Shown here: in pieces, positions 34,543 through 45,804 of the stretch | How positions within the stretch are numbered: the first letter of the stretch is position 1 | Layout: each line of letters opens with the position of its first letter | Assembly (NCBI RefSeq): GCF_020921035.1 | Contig: NC_063150.1 | Location: 5,270,001 to 5,334,000, forward strand | Origin: Rhodamnia argentea | Lineage: Eukaryota > Streptophyta > Magnoliopsida > Myrtales > Myrtaceae | Direction of reading: 5' to 3' | Length of the DNA: 64,000 nt | Made by a program: the position numbers and the translations under genes | Notes under the pieces: model-generated | Database searches by the model: none | What the model saw: only the letters and a program-made list of their open reading frames with translations | Told to the model about the DNA's origin: nothing

Positions 34543-36792
34543 ACACCTTTCTACGGATATGTTGGGGGTAACATAATGTTTATGTTCAAACTGTAGGCTT
34601 TTTCACCCACTTTTACATGTCCGTCTTCCTAGAAGCTGTATAGGTTAGATCTGCGACCGCGGGCATTTTAAGAGTGGCAAAACCGATGTAGAACTGAGCT
34701 CACGAGAATGTGAGCGATTCCGGGGAGGATATTGGTTTTGTATTTGTTCAACCTTTTCTTGGACTTCACTTCGAGGAGGATTTAGAAATGGAAGTAAGTT
34801 GTGAATAGCTTCCGTGCTCGCTCTGGAAGCAATTGAAAATGTATGTTGCTGCAATGTTTGGCCAAGCTTTCTCCTTTTGTTCAACCGGAGCTCCAAAAAT
34901 ATCGGGTTTGGGTTGTCTCCGCGACCATGATTGACTGCATGATGTCGCGGACATAAGATGGGACGATACGGGCCGGACTGATTTGGCTTTCGGATCCAGT
35001 TTTAAGCAGCTGTGTGACGAAGTAACTGACTGCAGGTACGAGAAGAAAGATCAACAGGCTTCACGTACCTGGAGCATTTGATCAGGCTAATAGCTTCCCA
35101 GCGTCGGTGGATTGATGACTCAATGCAAATGTATGTCTGACCTGATTTGTGGCAAGATATTGCTGCAATCTTTTGTCCATTTTACGAAGAAACTTACGAA
35201 AGCCAGCTTCAGCAGCTGACCTTTCTGTTATGGCTCATGAATGTGCAGTTTGGCATTACCTTCCCCTAGTGTCCGCATGAATTTATTCTTCTCACGCATG
35301 CAGAACTAAGCAACAAGGCATGTTTTGCACTGCGATTATGTCAATCCTTGTTGCCTGGATCGTACTTCATTGATCAAAACCGTGGTACGATGACGGTAGG
35401 TTCACTTTGATCGTGTAGTTAGAATCAGGCATTACTCTCTTAACTATAGTGAAGATAATATGGATATTCAATTGATTAGCTATGAAATACCACTAACTGC
35501 TTGTGTGCAGATGCATTGTCAATTAGCCACTTGCTCGGACATGGTGCTCTGAGTACCATGTTAAGCACGGTTTTCAAACTGTTTCTCGCCCGAATTGGAT
35601 TTGACAACGGAATCTCTTTTGGGATGATAAAGCTTGAGAAATACAGCCACTTTAATAGAACTTAATGTACACAAATTATGCCAGAATTTAATTGGCGACA
35701 AAGCTCGAGAACGTGAAAGATGCAACATCAGAGTATAATCAAGGATGCGGATTTGAAACTACATTTAAGAAACACGATGGAATTGAAACGACGATGTGAA
35801 CATTTCTCTTGCGATTATAGCTATGCTTCCCCATTTCCGAAAATCTTGTGTCCATGCTGCCGCGATGCCGTGATCTTGTCTTCGAGACGTGGCTCCGTTA
35901 AAATCACGTTTGGGTTACTCCACAACTCCATTGCTTTATTCAATAGTGGTTTGAAAAATCATGACTGCGTCCGGGCATCCTCCAACCTTCTCTTGGTGTC
36001 TCAATTTACAATCTATCGTCCCTTTTAATGGATATCCGTATCGACTATCGCTAACCATATGTCGTCGCATACGGACAACTTATTAATGGTCATCGATGTA
36101 CATCAACAATTCTTAGTGTTTCTGACAATAGGTCACGTGTTCAGTAATAGCTGGCGCTTTAGTCACGTGCCCTTTCATGTCGACGACCTGGTCAATTTTT
36201 GGTGCAAACAGAATCCTTTCAAGGTCTCATTTGAAAAATCTGCTCCGACCTTCACTCTGTGCTGTGCTCAAATTGGAATTTTGCATTTTACGAGGCCATG
36301 TTTAAGCCGGGCCACCATTGAGTGTGTTTTCAAGCGCTTCTATGATGCATCAGGTGTATCGTACGATATTACGAATGCGTCATCATAGTTAAGGAATTGG
36401 AGATTACAAATTGCATGCCTGGTACACGAATATTTTTTTATCATCTGGTAGTTTTTGCATGATGAAGCAAATCCAACTAATCATGAATGAACCATATATC
36501 AGATAAACAATTTCCCCACAAATTTTTTTGATGACACCTTCCGTATAAAGTGTCTTCTCTCAACACGTGGAGCTTCGCTCATACCTCGTAAAGACATTTC
36601 CTTTTGCATGATTGGCCTTGCAAGTTAGGCTCTTGATGAATTCTTCGTAAGTCAAACGTAATCCCTCCAAAAAAGAATGGCTCAGTCATGATTAGCTTCT
36701 CCTAAAATGTTTCACGACACCCTCCTTTATAACCATCTCGTATGAAACAACATCGGTGCTTCACTGAGAACATCCAACGAAAATCCCAGACC
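34543..36792. other. Intergenic between AFP and S-protein homologue genes
   Basis: AFP 3' UTR, then DNA with one recognisable feature: 35138-35310 resembles 37985-38215 and 45600-45772. Open frames at 35720-36028 and 36059-36388 have no recognisable domain and are not called. Confidence 0.5.
35138..35310. repeat. First copy of a dispersed S-protein-upstream-like sequence
   Basis: Shares, by eye, 'cagtttggcattaccttccc' with 'cggtttggcattttccttcc' in the second copy, and 'gaagaaacttac' plus 'gaactaagcaaca' with the third copy. Similarity is imperfect throughout. Confidence 0.5.
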
Positions 36793-37245
36793 ATGGCCTC
36801 GTTCGGCAACCACTTCTTCTTGGTCGCATCGCTCACCCTCATGTTCTCGGGCGGCGCGGCCCGCCTCATGATGAACGAAACCGGCGCCTGCGTAGACTTC
36901 GTGATCAGCCCTTTCAAGACCGTGGTGCAAGTGTTCAACCGCCTTTACGGCGTGAACTTTACGATTCACTGCAAGTCCAAGAACGACGACCTAGGGAGCT
37001 GCGTGGTCGGCCCCGATGGGAACTACCGGTTCAAGTTCCGGGCCAATTTCTGGGGCACCACGCTGTTTTTCTGCGGGGTTTCCTGGGCGAAAGGGTGGAT
37101 CGTGTTCGACATCTACTCGACCAAGAGAGACATCGGACGTTGCCAAACTTACTGCATGTGGGAAGTCCTTGGTGACGGCCTTTATGGTTACAGGCAGCAG
37201 GACAAGGTTTGTGACCTTAAACTCCCGTTCAAGGACAAGCCCTAA
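36793..37245 (+). CDS. S-protein homologue (plant self-incompatibility protein S1 family), 150 aa secreted
   Basis: Single exon. The start MASFGNHFFLVASLTLMF is preferred over an in-frame ATG 17 codons upstream because it places a signal peptide (about residues 1-23) at the N-terminus and has a good context (accATGG). The mature part shows family features: NFTIHCKSKNDDLG, a central W-rich strand region (FKFRANFWGTTLFFCGVSW) and conserved cysteines near residues 33, 60, 70, 116, 120 and 139. S1-family proteins are small secreted beta-sandwich proteins; the founding poppy member is a stigma self-incompatibility ligand, but most homologues have unknown roles. Upstream is a TATA-like tataac near 36728. 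It is the only intact member of a locally duplicated set. Confidence 0.88.
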   Translation: MASFGNHFFLVASLTLMFSGGAARLMMNETGACVDFVISPFKTVVQVFNRLYGVNFTIHCKSKNDDLGSCVVGPDGNYRFKFRANFWGTTLFFCGVSWAKGWIVFDIYSTKRDIGRCQTYCMWEVLGDGLYGYRQQDKVCDLKLPFKDKP

Positions 37246-37680: not shown

Positions 37681-37976
37681 TGAAGTTTGGTTTCGCAAAA
37701 TCTCCGGCAGCGACTCACTTGAAAATGCACATACCATGGGGTCGGAATGACAACGTTCCTCGACATGCCTGTGAAGATTTTAACGGATCTAAAGCCGTGC
37801 GGAACACTGCCAACGCAGTTCATGATCTGGGCACAACCGCATGAATCACATAATTATCGGACCATATACATTAAGAGAGTTCTGTTTAGGAGGGTCTAAG
37901 GTAGGTATGCAACCACAATATACGAGCTAGGACACCGTTGACTGCATGCAAAACTTTGAAAAATGTTTAGTCCACA

Positions 37977-38222
37977 CAGTGTTGTTGACCAGATTTTGGC
38001 TAAGATCATTACAATCTGTCCATATTCCGAGACCAAAACAACTCGAGGTCGATTTCAATCAATGGGGGTCAACAGTTGCGAGGAAAGAAACGAAAAGTCC
38101 GTTTTGCCTCGTAAATATGCGGTTTGGCATTTTCCTTCCCTTGGTCTGAACAAATTTCTTCCTCTTCTGGGTCTAATTTCGTCACCAGATTAGTCCCATT
38201 TATATAAAACTAATCAGTATCA
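37977..38222. repeat. Second copy of the S-protein-upstream-like sequence, interrupted by the copia insertion
   Basis: Runs from 'gttgttgaccagattttggc' to 'ataaaactaatcagtatcaa'. It parallels 45577-45772 ('gttgttgacttgacttcggc' to 'atagaactaagcaacatcaa'). In the third copy this sequence directly precedes the truncated S-protein homologue; here the LTR element begins 45 bp further on. Confidence 0.6.
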
Positions 38223-38267
38223 ACCGCCCCTATTCAAGCTAGTGATAATGGTTGCAGTGGTGGTGGT

Positions 38268-39039
38268 TGTTGGAAAAATAATGGAATGTAGTAACAATGT
38301 GGTCGGACTTTGAGGCGTGTAATCACTCTCTTTTAGGATCAATTTGCCCCACGAAGTTGCTATAGGTTTTCGGCAAATTCCCTTCAGGATACAACAAAGT
38401 CGCGATGAGATTACTGGATAGCAATTCCAGTAATTCTCCAAAACTCTCTACGAAACAATGAAGATTGGCTGTCTCTCTTTTGAAGGAAAACGAAAGAAAT
38501 AAAAGTTGTCACGTAAATTGAACAAAATTGTCCTATATATAATACTAATGGAACACACCTCTTGGTGTCCAAACCGCCCATGTACGAACGCACCTTTTCA
38601 TGTCCGAAACATCGCACCAATTCATGTCCGAAACATTACCATTTGGACATGACTTGTTGTGAGTGATAACAATCATTCGAACACAACCGTTCGTAAGAGA
38701 CAACCGCCATTCGGACGCAACTGTTCATGTCTGAACAGTCATGATTAATAATATAAAAATAAAATAAATTGATTTCGAAAAAGAAAATAATAATTAAGGT
38801 TTATTTCCGTCCGCGGCGCGCAAGCGTGCAAAGTGCTAAGTGCGTCTAATAATCGCGTCAAAATCGCGCAATCACACGCGCACCCGCACGCGGGTATAGT
38901 GGGGTCTAGCCCACTTGCCCATTTCTTTATTCTGAAAGACTATTGTGGCCTTCTAACTAATAAAGAGACTTGCACCCTTCTTTCTATCCTATGTGGGATT
39001 GAAAAGGCAGCTTTTTGTTTTAACAAACAAACTTCAACA
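38268..39039 (-). repeat. LTR, left copy (3' LTR in element sense)
   Basis: 772 bp; begins TGTTGGAAAAATAATGG and ends AACTTCAACA. Contains CTATATATAATAC near 38531-38545, a TATA box in element sense, and short repeats around TGTCCGAA. Confidence 0.95.
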
Positions 39040-39053
39040 ATCCCCCACTTTGT
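39040..39053 (-). other. Polypurine tract of the copia element
   Basis: Read on the minus strand, CAAAGTGGGGGAT lies directly against the 3' LTR: the expected place and composition for the plus-strand primer. Confidence 0.75.
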
Positions 39054-39630
39054 TTGTAAAACAAATAATAATTTTTTTTTTTTTTAATAATATGTATTTT
39101 TAAAAGTGATACAGCCAAAATTTCATGAGATCGGTATACATACATGAAGGTCTCTTTCGAGTTAAACCTTCATTTAGTGCAAGTATCTCAAAGTTCTATT
39201 AAAGTCACAAGTAGTGCCGGCGTTAAACTTGTTACTTTTAGTAATATTACCGGAAATACTGCACATATATTAACCTCTTGTTTCAACGAGAAGTTTATAA
39301 TATACTTAGCACTGTTATGGCCTTGTGCTTGTACCTTTTCATGAGCTCTCTAGAAAGCAACCATAACTTTCGTAAGAAGCGGCACCACTTCTAAGCTCAT
39401 ATAGGTGAAGTATCAATCACGTGTTTCTGTTACTAATGAACACGATACATTAATGTATTATACTTCATTAAGAATATAATTCAGCCTCTAAAACGTAATG
39501 CACAATCCGATTTCTCATGTCGGGGCTTATATCGAGTATTATACAATCACTTTCAAGAACTTGTTTTTACCCATTAAACCATATTACTAGTGATGTGCTA
39601 GTATTTGGTCGGGTTACCATTACCGATGAT

Positions 39631-40719
39631 TTAATTAAATGGTTTCAACCCCATTTCTTTTGAGCTCATTATTACTACCTCTCTTGGTAGTGCCTTCGTG
39701 AAAGGGTCAGCCAAATTCTTGCTTGACCTTACATAGACAATTGTTATGGTACCATCTTTAATCAATTGTCTTACATACTCATGTCTTAGACTAATATGCC
39801 TAGACTTACCATTATAGGTGCTACTATATGCTCTTGCCAAAGTAGCTTGACTATCACAATGGATAGAAATAGGAGGCATTGGACTAAGCCACAATTTGAT
39901 ATCTAACAACAAATTTCTAATCCATTCAGCCTCTTTCCCACTTGCCGCTAAAGCTATAAATTCTGATTCCATCGTTGAATGAGATATACAAGTCTGTTTC
40001 TTGCTTGCCCAAGATATAGCACATCCTCCTAATGTGAAAATCCATCCAGAGGTAGAATGTTTATCTCCTACGCTTGTAATCCAACTAGCATCGGTGTATC
40101 CTTCTAGTACAGCCGGATAATTATTATAGAACAATCCCAAATTTTTGGTTCTCTTAAGATAGCCAAAAATTCTTGTAACAGCATTCCAATGTTCTATACT
40201 TGGATTACTAGTGTATCTACTCAATTTACACACAGAAAATGCGATGTCAGGTCTAGTACAATGCATCGCATACATTAAAGATCCTATAGCACTCGCATAT
40301 TCAAGTTGTGCTACTGCCCTACCGGAATTATAATTTAACTTCACATTGGGATCAAATGGAGTACTCGCCACTTTGTAACCAAGATGCTGAAATTTATTTA
40401 ACATTTTTTCAATGTAATCTCCTTGACTCAACGAGTAACCCCCACTATGCTTTTTTACTTTGATACCCAATATAGTATCTACTTCACCCAAATCTTTCAT
40501 TTTAAAGTTCGAAGTTAGATACTTTTTAGTCTCATTTACTCCAGTCATATTGGTTCCAAAAATAAGCATATCATCAACGTATAAGCAAACCAAGACTCCA
40601 TAGTCTTTAGTGAACTTAGAGTAAATACACTTATCAGCACTATTATGTTTGAAACCATTAGACAATATGACTGAATCAAATTTCTCATGCCACTTGTTTT
40701 GGAGCTTGCTTAAGTCCAT
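39631..40719 (-). pseudogene. Copia reverse transcriptase (C-terminal part) and RNase H segment
   Basis: Open segment of 362 codons. It has the RT catalytic block LVCLYVDDMLIFG (YVDD), then GSLMYAMHCTRPDIAF, and RNase H features GYTDASW, STMESEFIALA and SKNLADPFTKAL. It continues the preceding RT segment after a frame change near 40690. Confidence 0.92.
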
Positions 40720-41038
40720 AAAGAGATTTAATCAACTTACACACTTTCTTTTCGTTCCCGGGAAGTATAAAACCTTCTGGTTGTTCCATGTAAATTTCTT
40801 CATTTAAATCTCCATTTAAGAAAGCAGTTTTGACATCCATTTGATGAACACAAAGATCATAAATGGATGCAAGAGCAAAAAGAATCCGAATAGATGTTAT
40901 ACGTGCTACAGGGGCATAAGTATCAAAATAATCTATTCCTTCTTTTTGTCTATATCCTTTGGCCACCAACCTAGCCTTAAAAGTTTGGACCTGTACCATC
41001 AGAGTTATATTTTCTCCCGAAAACCCATTTACACCCAA
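40685..41038 (-). pseudogene. Copia reverse transcriptase, N-terminal segment
   Basis: Carries FKARLVAKGYRQKEGIDYFD, APVARITSIRILFALA, the YxQMDVKTAFLNG equivalent VHQMDVKTAFLNGDL and SLYGLKQAPKQ. Frame changes lie on both sides (near 40998 and 40690). Confidence 0.92.
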
Positions 41039-42389
41039 TAGGTTTAGATCCTTTTGGCAAATCTGCTAATACCCAAGTATTATTAGACATAATTGAGTCC
41101 ATTTCATCATCTATAGCTTCTTTCCAAAAGGAAGCATCTCTAGAAGACATAGCATCACTAAAACATTTAGGATCGTCTTCTAAATTAAATACTAAAGGGT
41201 ATTTATTTACCACATTATTATCTCTGTCTCCTTCAACAAGAAAAATATGAGTAATAAAGTCGGGACCTAAATCTTTCAATTTTCTTGGTCTTGTACTTCT
41301 CCTTGGTTCAGTCATAATTTTCGAATCCTTTATTTCCTTTTCATGAGAATCTACTTGTATTTCTATAGGCTTTGAATTATTATTCCCACTAATTTCAAAG
41401 TCCGTAGAATACTTATTCTCAAAAAACTCAACATCTCTTGATTCCACTATGACATTTGATTCTAAATCAAGAAGCCTATAAGCTTTACTATTTTCAGCAT
41501 ATCCAAGGAAAACACTTTTAATTGCTCTAGGACCAAGCTTTGTTCTCTTAGGGTCCGGTACTCTATAATAAGCCAAGCACCCCCACACTTTAAAATATGA
41601 CAAGTTTGGCTTTCTACCTTTCCACAATTCATATGGACTTACGTTAGTCTTCTTAGATGGTATTCTATTATGAATATGACATGCGGTAAGTAATGCTTCA
41701 CCCCATAAATTAATTGGTAGCTTTGAGTTAGAAAGCATACAATTAATCATTTCTCCAAGAGATCTATTTTTCCTTTCAGCCAAACCATTCTGCTGTGGAG
41801 TGTATGGTGCTGAAGTTTGATGAATAATACCATGTTCTTCACAAAATGATGAAAATTCATTCAAGAAATATTCACCACCTCTATCTGAACGTAGAACTTT
41901 AATTTTCTTTTCCAATTGATTTTCTACTTCAGCCTTATATTTCTTAAACATGGTAAATGCTTCATCCTTAGATCTTAAGAGATAAACGTACAAATACCTA
42001 CTGCGGTCATCCACAAAGGTAATAAAATACCTTTTACCACCACGAGTTAACATTCCATTGAATTCGCATATATCGCTATGCACCAAATCTAACAAATTCG
42101 AATTCCTACTTGTACTCGGAAAAGGTCTCTTCGTTAATTTAGACTCAGCACAAATTTCACATTTATCTAATTCTCCATTAAAATTGATCAAGTCTAATTT
42201 TTTCATATTCTTTAAATATCGAAAATTTAAATGCGCTAATCTACTATGCCATAAAATTGAAGAGTCAACAGTATAAACAGAAGATTCAATCTTATTATTG
42301 ATACTTAGTTGATACATGCCATCATTGGCATAACCCTTTCCCACAAATATTCCATTCTTCGACAAGATAACCTTGTCGGATTCAAACAA
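40977..42389 (-). pseudogene. Copia integrase segment
   Basis: 470 codons. Visible are a zinc-binding HRLAHLN-type region (LWHSRLAHLNFRYL with CEICAESKLTKRPF), integrase core blocks LLDLVHSDICEF, YFITFVDDRSRYLYVY and HQTSAPYTPQQNGLAERKNR, and the GKKPxLSYFKVWGC region. The frame breaks before and after it. Confidence 0.92.
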
Positions 42390-43654
42390 GACCGAAATCC
42401 CCTTTTACATAACAAATCAACAGAAATTAAATTCTTCCTAATCTCGGGTACATACAATACATTCAGAAGGGTAACTTTCTTTCCCGAAGTGAAGTCTAAC
42501 TCCACGGAGCCTTGGCCTTCGATTTTTGCAACACTGGTGTTTGCCATTTGGACCTCTCGATAGTTAATGTCAACAACCTCTTGAAAGTTCTTGATCATGG
42601 ACTTATCCTTGCACACGTGGATTGTTGCTCCGGAATCCAACCACCAACCCGATTGAACAGAAGTACCGTTGATTTCAGTAATCGTGGCCACAATACCATC
42701 AAGTTTCTCAGAAATTTCCAAGTTTGAAAACTTATGTGTAACCATGGCCACATAGTTTTCTTCAACAGCATTGGTATCCGCCTTCACAATTGGCATTGGT
42801 GTATTCTTCTCCTTGGAAGTATTGTTCTTGCGATGCCTACAGTCCCTTGCAAAATGGCCCACTTTGCCGCAAACGAAACAGCCCCCTTTCTTTTTCTTTT
42901 GTGCCTTCTTAAAATTCTGCTCTCTCTTGCGTTTCAAATTTGGGTTAATTTTGGACTGAAATCCATCACCCGTCGGGACATTCACTTTAGTTTCGTATAG
43001 TCCAGAATTTTCACGCAAGCGTGACTCTTCTTCAATGCGAAGATGTTTCTGGAGTTGAACCAAAGTTATGTCCTCTGTCCCGTGCATAAGCCTTTTCCCA
43101 TAGTCCTTCCAACTTGAAGGCAATTTGGCAATGATTGCTCCAACTTGAAATGCTTCTGGTATGTCGATTTTGAGAGCACGAATTTTGTTCACTAGAACTT
43201 GTAGTTCGTGGACTTGCTCCAGAAGGGGTTTAGCATCAATGAATTTGAAATCGAAATATTTAGCAATCAGATATTTGTTAGTACCTTGTTCCTCTGCTCT
43301 GTACTTGAATTCGAGTGCATTCCAGATTTCCCTAGCCGACTTCATTTCTGTGAACAAGTCATACGGTCGGTCGGACAGCGTATTGAGAATGTGCCCGCGA
43401 CAAAGTAGTTCGTCTTCATCACGTTTCTTCTTTGCCTTATTCACCCTCTCAATTTCTTCAGCATTTGGTTCTTGCCCTTCGGTGGTAGGAATAGGATCTT
43501 CAATAGGCGCCAAATTCGGGTCCAGAATATATGATATCTTCAAAGCCGTAAGCAGAAACATCACTTTGTCCTTCCAACGTGAGAAGTTGTTGCCGTCGAA
43601 CCGATCTAACTTGACCATATCCCGATTCATCACTTTGATGGTTTCCGACTCCAT
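42305..43654 (-). pseudogene. Copia gag and protease segment
   Basis: 449 codons from an ATG only 26 bases inside the 5' LTR. A gag domain (FDGNNFSRWKDKVMFLL onward) is followed by the CCHC zinc knuckle CFVCGKVGHFARDC and the aspartic protease motif WWLDSGATIHVC. The frame is lost after LISVDLLCKRGF. Confidence 0.92.
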
Positions 43655-43663
43655 TGTTGCGCG

Positions 43664-43758
43664 AAATTGATCCTAAAAATTGTTGGAAAAATAATGGAAT
43701 GTAGTAACAATGTGGTCGGACTTTGAGGCGTGTAATCACTCTCTTTTAGGATCAATTT
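43664..43758 (-). other. 15-bp inverted repeat spanning the 5' LTR / internal junction, at the primer-binding position
   Basis: AAATTGATCCTAAAA (43664-43678, internal) is the exact reverse complement of TTTTAGGATCAATTT (43744-43758, inside the LTR). In element sense the internal copy starts 2 bases after the LTR end, where a tRNA primer-binding site normally lies, yet it has no TGG start and no match I can see to initiator tRNA-Met. See findings. Confidence 0.7.
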
Positions 43759-44452
43759 GCCCCACGAAGTTGCTATAGGTTTCCGGCAAATTCCCTTCGG
43801 GATACAACAAAGTCGCGATGAGATTCTTGGATAGCAATTCCAGTAATTCTCCAAAACTCTCTACGAAACAATGAAGATTGGCTGTCTCTCTTTTGAAGGA
43901 AAACGAAAGAAATAAAAGTTGTCACAGAAATTGAACAAAATTGTCCTATATATAATACTAATGGAACACACCTCTTGGTGTCCAAACCGCCCATGTACGA
44001 ACGCACCTTTTCATGTCCGAAACATCGCACCAATTCATGTCCGAAACATTACCATTTGGACATGACTGTTTGTGAGTGATAACAATCATTCGAACACAAC
44101 CGTTCGTAAGAGACAACCGCCATTCGGACGCAACTGTTCATGTCCGAACAGTCATGATTAATAATATAAAAATAAAATAAATTGATTTCGAAAAAGAAAA
44201 TAATAATTAAGGTTTATTTCCGTCCGCGGCGCGCAAGCGTGCAAAGTGCTAAGTGCGTCTAATAATCGCGTCAAAATCGCGCAATCACACGCGCACCCGC
44301 ACGCGGGTATAGTGGGGTCTAGCCCACTTGCCCATTTCTTTATTCCGAAAGACTATTGTGGCCTTCTAACTAATAAAGAGACTTGCACCCTTCTTTCTAT
44401 CCTATGTGGGATTGAAAAGGCAGCTTTTTGTTTTAACAAACAAACTTCAACG
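43681..44452 (-). repeat. LTR, right copy (5' LTR in element sense)
   Basis: 772 bp, same length as the left copy. Differences seen by eye include ttccgg/tttcgg, ttcggg/ttcagg, gattcttgg/gattactgg, cacagaaat/cacgtaaat, gactgtttg/gacttgttg and the final base G instead of A. Confidence 0.95.
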
Positions 44453-45576
44453 GTGGTGGTGGTGGTGGTGCCGGAGTCCGTCCATGGTGGTGTTGAGGAC
44501 AACGGGTGGTGGCTGCCGGCAGGGATTTCTCAACCAAAGAAGGGGGTTTGTGTATGGAAGATGAAAAAGAGAGATGATGTGGATGCATCTCGACCGTCCA
44601 CTGCGTGCTTGGCGACATGGCATGATCTTAAGAAGACAGGTTGATGTGCTCCAACATGTACAACTAACAATGACACGATGGCAAAACCATTTACATCCAA
44701 TGATGTGAAATTGTTTTGAGGGAATTACTAAAGTTGTTTCGAATGTCGGATATGTCAAGTTCTTTTACTAAAAAGAAAATTTTTAAATAAAAATTTGAAG
44801 TATAACGTTTTTGAAAAAGATAGCTCAAAGTCAATCTTACCTCAAATAAGATTTTGAAGTGATCAAATTAAAACGAGGACATTTTTCAAACCATGACTTA
44901 TTTTCTTCCTTTCATCTTCTTCGTCTTTCTCATTCTTTTTCCCACTTCCGGTGCCCATCATTCTTCTTCATTCTTTTCTTTGTCCCCTTCAACCGCTCCT
45001 CCATCCGTCGGTGGCTCGACGGCGTTGATGGCCGTTCTCTTTTTCTCGCTCGTGGCAATGGCTGCCATATCTCTAGGCTGCCAACCATGGCCACAAGCTC
45101 TCTTCTGCTCTATTATAGAAAGCGAGTTCAGCATCTAATGGTGAAACTAAAATGCATGATATAATCCGGACATCCTCAAATTTTCACACTACACAAATCT
45201 AATGATCCATACCTAGCCCAATGTATATTGTTAAAAATACTTCAATATTAGAATCCAATTTAGAAAAAATTGTTTCTTATACATTTTTAAAGATATATAT
45301 TTCTAATGTATTTTTATGGTTTTCTTAGCTAATCCATATATGATCAATTTAAAAATTCATTTATGGCCCATTAAGTTTTTAAGTTACTCATTTTGTCGCT
45401 ATGAAAAATGAGTTCTAGATCCATTTTGCCACCTCTCCATCAGTAACACCAAACTTCAGGTCATACTAATTGAGTTCATAAGTGACTCCAAATTGAGTTC
45501 AAGCAGAAAAAAAAAAAAAGACTCCAACGTAAGCATTCCACCACAAAGTACGAGGAGATCAGTTTATCAACCAACG
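44453..45576. other. DNA right of the copia insertion
   Basis: Begins with the GTG-repeat target DNA. The frame at 44893-45138 would encode an 81-aa hydrophobic peptide (MTYFLPFIFFVFLILFPTS) but has no family match and I do not call it. A poly-A run is near 45507-45520. Confidence 0.5.
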
Positions 45577-45804
45577 TTGTTGACTTGACTTCGGCTGAAA
45601 TCGTTACAATAGTTTGTCCGTATTACGAGTCCAAAACAACTCAGGCTCAATTTCTTTTATGAGGGTCAAACGACATGAAGAAACTTACAAAAAAAAGTCC
45701 AGCTTCAACAGATCTGCTTTCTGTTTTGCCTTGGATTAGACCAGTTCATATAGAACTAAGCAACATCAACTAAGGACTTCAACGATCAGTCCTCACAACA
45801 ATTC
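45577..45804. repeat. Third copy of the S-protein-upstream-like sequence
   Basis: Parallels 37977-38222 and leads directly into the truncated S-protein homologue, which shows what the repeated segment originally preceded. Confidence 0.6.

Follow-up and report, generated by a model that had tools for sequence, protein, structure and literature searches.

Self-priming of reverse transcription was first demonstrated for the Ty3-type element Tf1 (PMC4600332), where it involves the 5' end of the RNA and a structure of three duplexes (PMC4600332, PMC10085805). In Tf1/Tf2 and the Tf1/sushi group, as well as in Tj1 and Tosmo, a self-primer from the 5' LTR pairs with a primer-binding site (PBS) just past the LTR (PMC4600332, PMC10085805). 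For plants, self-priming has been predicted in 12% of LTR elements, and within Ty1/copia this prediction concerns the TAR lineage (Neumann et al. 2019, PMC6317226). The REXdb lineage TAR includes Houba and Osr-1, for which self-priming had been proposed before that study (PMC6317226). A self-primer is predicted there when at least 10 bp of the 5' LTR can pair with sequence that begins 0-5 bp past the LTR (PMC6317226). Other plant copia elements without a standard 3'-tRNA PBS are proposed to use half tRNAs, tRNA-Ile in Bianca and tRNA-Met in Osser/Bryco, as their PBS matches an inner tRNA region (PMC6317226). The fungal GalEa copia elements are also devoid of a tRNA PBS and carry inverted repeats, the Conserved Hairpin Site, at the PBS position (PMC5445492).

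The element described here is located in a window of 64,000 nucleotides from contig NC_063150.1 of Rhodamnia argentea, whose genome comprises 347 Mb in 74 contigs; the window is the whole stretch of DNA that was analysed, and all positions are counted within it. Domain order and Pfam families place the element in the Ty1/copia superfamily: its polyprotein contains, in copia order, Retrotran_gag_2, zf-CCHC, Pol_BBD, gag_pre-integrs, rve, SH3_retrovirus and RVT_2, and the coding part is split over several frames and ORFs in this copy. The two LTRs differ by 11 mismatches over 772 bp. The main parts of the insertion are as follows.

38268..44452, minus strand: Ty1/copia LTR retrotransposon, whole insertion, recognized by the LTR pair, the 5-bp target site duplication and Pfam copia domains
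43681..44452, minus strand: 5' LTR, 772 bp; the first base of its TG end is C in the window copy
38268..39039, minus strand: 3' LTR, 772 bp
44453..44457: target site duplication ACCAC on the 5' side, perfect, 5 bp
38263..38267: target site duplication ACCAC on the 3' side, perfect, 5 bp
42305..43654, minus strand: ORF with copia gag, zinc knuckle and Pol_BBD stretch (Pfam)
40977..42389, minus strand: ORF with gag_pre-integrs, integrase core and SH3-like domain (Pfam)
39631..40719, minus strand: ORF with the rear part of the copia reverse transcriptase (Pfam)
39042..39051, minus strand: polypurine tract AAAGTGGGGG, followed by AT and then the 3' LTR

The insertion site is a CCA-type microsatellite (44453-44470 and 38257-38267), to which the duplicated ACCAC belongs. 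Outside the element, stretches on both sides (45562-45669 and 37965-38072) are about 76% identical over 112 columns. About 1 kb past the 3' LTR, an ORF of 167 amino acids on the plus strand (36742-37245) resembles plant self-incompatibility protein S1 (PF05938, E 1e-24).

The initial annotation had drawn attention to a perfect 15-nt complement between a site 2 nt past the 5' LTR and a segment 63 nt before the LTR end, and all coordinates of this arrangement hold. A renewed reading of the leader also agrees with its length of 26 bases and with the lack of a TGG-type tRNA site within it (the pattern for an initiator-Met-type site is TGGTATCAGAGC). The end of the 5' LTR at 43681 reads ...CCAACA. 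The region between arm and gag is organized as follows.

43744..43758, minus strand: candidate self-primer arm AAATTGATCCTAAAA in the 5' LTR; predicted primer 3' end at 43744
43681..43743, minus strand: loop between the arms, i.e. the rest of the LTR, 63 nt
43679..43680, minus strand: AT between LTR end and primer-binding site, the predicted first two bases copied
43664..43678, minus strand: candidate primer-binding site TTTTAGGATCAATTT, the exact 15-nt complement of the arm
43655..43680, minus strand: leader from the 5' LTR to the gag ATG, 26 nt
38331..38345, minus strand: copy of the primer arm in the 3' LTR

With 15 bp of complementarity beginning 2 bp after the LTR, the element has the kind of complement from which a self-primer is predicted for TAR (PMC6317226). 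Like TAR members, it is a plant Ty1/copia element with a 5' LTR complement at 0-5 bp in place of a tRNA PBS, and by this feature it most likely belongs to the TAR lineage, which itself is defined by trees of RT, RH and INT protein domains. The idea of self-priming in plant copia elements is thus already in print (PMC6317226). The pairing of a 5' LTR segment with a site just past the LTR is shared with Tf1/Tf2, Tf1/sushi, Tj1 and Tosmo (PMC4600332, PMC10085805). However, a Ty3-type domain order with a chromodomain integrase, as in Tf1/sushi, is not present in the window element, which has copia order and copia families. From GalEa it differs in the position of the arms: both GalEa arms follow the LTR, whose last base is already part of the first arm, and no complement within the LTR was found (PMC5445492), whereas one arm of the window element lies inside the LTR. 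The absence of a standard 3'-tRNA PBS is a likeness to Bianca and Osser/Bryco (PMC6317226), but no inner-tRNA match of the window leader was found among the 40 tRNAs tested, the longest being 6 nt.

Relatives of the element were collected in the same genome by a gag search, which gave 150 matches out of 409 candidates with identities from 100% down to 31%. Fifty of these matches were read as loci: the 30 best by E-value (L009-L038, where L009 is the copy in the window itself) and another 20 in which the match starts at gag residue 12 or earlier (L039-L058). An LTR end was recognized in 48 of the 50, L032 and L052 being dropped, and the flank of the arm was recognized in 42 of these 48, which are the copies scored below. 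Among the six loci dropped at this step, L041 and L045 have type B arms by eye, L045 with a 15-nt complement; L027 and L038 have no matching arm within the stretch shown; and for L037 and L055 the assigned LTR ends are apparently spurious. In the unscored L032 the junction lies further upstream, and its arm AAATTGATCTTAAAA and leader TTTTTAGGATAAAATTTT match imperfectly by eye. A further LTR/leader junction, C4:25744446, lies outside the sample. A contrast group consisted of 20 gag relatives at 34-40% identity (L059-L078) in which the LTR end could not be located; TGGTATCA is absent from these 20 stretches of 1001 bp, and its sole match is in the loop of L034.

The arms fall into four types, each named here by its commonest string, from which single copies deviate. 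Type A, AAATTGATCCTAAAA, is the window's own type and comprises 12 copies, type B, AAATAATTCCTTAAA, comprises 20, type C, AAATAAATCCTTAAA, four, and type D, AAATAATACCTTAAG, three; the remaining three of the 42 scored arms are outside these types. Type D is distant from the window element, its gag being 41-45% identical.

Arm and leader change together across these copies. Watson-Crick pairs are formed in 561 of 630 cells (42 copies by 15 positions), and in 374 of 435 when each of the 29 distinct arm/leader pairs is counted once. Pairing is perfect in 10 of the 42 copies and reaches at least 13 of 15 positions in 34, with nine in the worst two. When leaders were permuted among copies, none of 10,000 trials was as high as 561 (mean 486, maximum 525), a test that overstates independence, since the helix types form clusters on a tree from which arms and leaders were excluded (six label changes, with four being the minimum possible), which points to few coordinated switches and not to 42 independent events. 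On this tree, one type C copy (L029) is placed among type A. Changes on both sides that keep a Watson-Crick pair occur at seven of the 15 pairs (0, 3, 6, 7, 8, 9 and 10), for pair 6 in one copy only. Independent divergence of the two 15-mers, which the initial annotation had named as the observation that would speak against its proposal, is therefore not seen, and a drifting apart of arm and PBS is rejected over the 42 copies.

The specificity of pairing differs between the types. Arms of types A and D fit leaders of their own type at 14.0 of 15 positions versus 8.6 and 9.0 with each other's. Type D has its own matched pair, in which a terminal G-C replaces A-T in two of three copies. Type B arms score 12.9 with other type B leaders and nearly the same (12.6) with type D leaders, and the paired region of type B is 14 nt because most copies have an A-C mismatch at pair 14. 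For type C arms, the value with other type C leaders (12.0) is equaled by that with leaders of type A (11.9) and type B (11.7). Two copies, L040 and L057, have a common leader with TTTTGAGG and ...ATCC that matches their arms incompletely (11 and 12 of 15).

The pairing is also fixed in position. In 41 of 42 copies the best register begins at +2 past the LTR end, and summed matches amount to 561 at +2 versus 345 at +1 and 305 at +3, while the distance from the arm to the LTR end, i.e. the loop, varies from 56 to 85 nt. A register tied to the LTR end argues for a primer-binding site, since a generic hairpin has no reason for such locking. The dinucleotide between LTR and PBS is AT in 42 of 48 loci. 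At the other end of the element, LTR pairs were sought in six further copies and resolved in four (L016, L018, L025, L048), with no pair within the stretches fetched for L053 and L028; in these four and in the window element, the order is purine tract, AT, TGTTG. Provided that the minus-strand start adjoins the helix, the linear cDNA would have the symmetric form AT-TGTTG...CAACA-AT in the window element and in the resolved copies except L048, whose cDNA ends would not be symmetric because GT, not AT, follows its 5' LTR. Symmetric AT ends are what is expected if first-strand synthesis begins at the helix.

Four features read directly from the sequence, namely the complement, its fixed register, its co-variation among relatives and the AT that matches at either end, support the proposal that the element primes itself with its RNA folded over the U5/leader junction; very likely, the site binds a self-primer that is part of the RNA of the element. 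Three other explanations have to be weighed against this. The complement could be a chance inverted repeat in a single copy or the remnant of a local duplication, and AT-rich sequence does favour short complements. When the real leader was compared with 20,000 simulated first-order Markov LTRs, allowing a start 0-5 nt past the LTR, 13 nt and 14 nt were each reached once and 15 nt never, so that a chance match, already judged very unlikely in the initial annotation, is rejected. The pairing is, moreover, retained over four helix types and 42 copies, and the probability of this explanation is practically negligible. Genome-wide, the 15-mer occurs 67 times versus six for a reversed control pattern.

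A half-tRNA or another small host RNA might act as primer, with the LTR copy of the sequence being secondary. Half-tRNA primers have been described for some plant Ty1/copia lineages (PMC6317226), and the tRNA set available for comparison, 40 of 62 tRNA matches with 14 anticodons, does not include initiator Met; within this set the longest exact complement starting 0-5 nt past the LTR end is 6 nt. However, the PBS changes between families together with the LTR arm, which a fixed host RNA would not explain, and ARAGORN, applied to 26 loci surrounding exact copies of the 15-mer, detected no tRNA gene (67 sites found, 30 with loci, of which 26 were given). A host RNA as primer is therefore highly improbable. 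Somewhat less remote, though still unlikely, is a structural RNA hairpin with a role in packaging, dimerization or the control of translation at the gag start, combined with a different primer such as a tRNA fragment. The end of the helix is indeed near the gag ATG, and co-variation alone indicates pairing, not priming. Against a mere hairpin stands the lock at +2 despite a variable loop, which is the register of a PBS and with which the AT dinucleotides at both cDNA ends agree, and among the 40 tRNAs no complement exceeds 6 nt.

For self-priming, the following sequence of events is proposed. The LTR segment AAATTGATCCTAAAA in the element RNA would fold back onto the leader, and the RNase H of the element, or another nuclease, would cut the RNA just 3' of this segment. 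The freed 3' end of the arm would then prime minus-strand synthesis, in which AT would be copied first, followed by the LTR end. Cleavage, priming and strand transfer are inferred by analogy with Tf1 and with the account of Neumann et al. 2019 (PMC6317226).

The position of the primer within the RNA depends on where transcription starts. One promoter-like feature of the LTR is relevant here.

43946..43954, minus strand: TATA-like box TATATATAG; its start is 196 nt upstream of the arm

This box agrees with the earlier estimate that the best TATA places the RNA start about 165 nt upstream of the complement. The start itself is deduced: supposing that transcription relies on the upstream box and sets in about 30 nt after it, the RNA would begin roughly 165 nt before the arm. 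In 29 of 42 copies, a TATA-like box begins 175-212 nt before the arm, in 25 of them at 194-208 nt; a box within 150 nt of the arm occurs in three of 42 and one at 162 nt in two type D copies. No copy among the 42 has a TATA-like box 20-45 nt upstream of the arm. CTATAG near the arm, which had been suggested as a weak alternative TATA, is not favoured, as it is present in eight of 12 type A copies and in none of the 30 others. With the upstream box in 29 of 42 copies and CTATAG restricted to type A, an internal position of the primer in the RNA is the most likely one. It would thus probably lie about 165 nt inside the RNA of this copia element, in contrast to the Ty3-type Tf1/sushi elements, in which the primer is at the RNA 5' end (PMC4600332, PMC10085805).

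A specific variant, to which slightly less than an even chance is given, is that the primer is an internal R segment about 165 nt past the RNA start that is cut at its 3' side, yielding a strong-stop product of about 65 nt, with the R/U5 border downstream of the primer. If the cut lies 3' of the arm and leaves a template of about 65 nt, polyadenylation in the 3' LTR should take place downstream of the arm, unless the primer acts in trans, and a second RNA molecule may supply it in this way. AATAAT or AATAAA occurs in arms of type B (L018), type C (L025 and L031) and type D (L053) and is absent from those of type A. These motifs resemble plant poly(A) near-upstream elements, and it is a speculative thought that, in the three types that have them, the primer arm might at the same time determine where poly(A) is added.

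The arm/PBS helix is part of the minimum-energy fold in nine of 13 representative copies and, with 150 nt of upstream sequence, in 23 of 42. The window RNA is not unusually stable as a whole: free folding gave a z-score of -1.36 with 20 of 200 shuffles being equally good. Beyond the main helix, a possible second short stem involves one further segment.

43706..43711, minus strand: ATTGTT, complementary to AACAAT (43679-43684) at the LTR end

A loop complement of at least 5 nt to the LTR-end stretch is present in 26 of 42 copies versus a mean of 9.2 and a maximum of 20 in 1000 loop shuffles; these complements are mostly ATTGTT or TTGTT against AACAA(T), and the LTR end is conserved anyway, so that co-variation cannot be judged for this stem. 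By analogy, it could represent one of the extra duplexes known from Tf1. Several minimum-energy folds also contain a helix in which bases on the upstream side of the arm pair with the gag start. Its summed run length is 254 versus a mean of 210 and a maximum of 228 in 200 sets of shuffled flanks, and versus 250.6 for swapped partners, with 1360 of 5000 permutations being as high. Thus, this helix may exist, though without copy-specific co-variation. Compared with the three-duplex 'pretzel' of Tf1 (PMC4600332, PMC10085805), extra duplexes are weakly indicated in the group of the window element.

In the literature covered here, support for self-priming in plant copia elements is prediction from complementarity (PMC6317226). 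The arms described here are paired across relatives, and their co-variation over four helix types in one genome adds independent support. Co-variation of the arms was not found in the accessible text of Neumann et al. 2019 (PMC6317226), and no report of arm/PBS co-variation in plant copia was encountered in a literature that excludes most subscription journals and supplements and in which the phrase itself was not a search term. To the known picture, the comparison of copies would thus add arms that co-vary, a fixed register with matching AT at either end of the element, and a primer that is likely internal. The co-variation fixes the predicted 3' end of the primer to the base. If the variant with an internal primer is true, each cycle would rewrite the PBS from the LTR, so that arm and PBS could drift in concert, and such an internal primer would constrain where the RNAs of these elements start and end.
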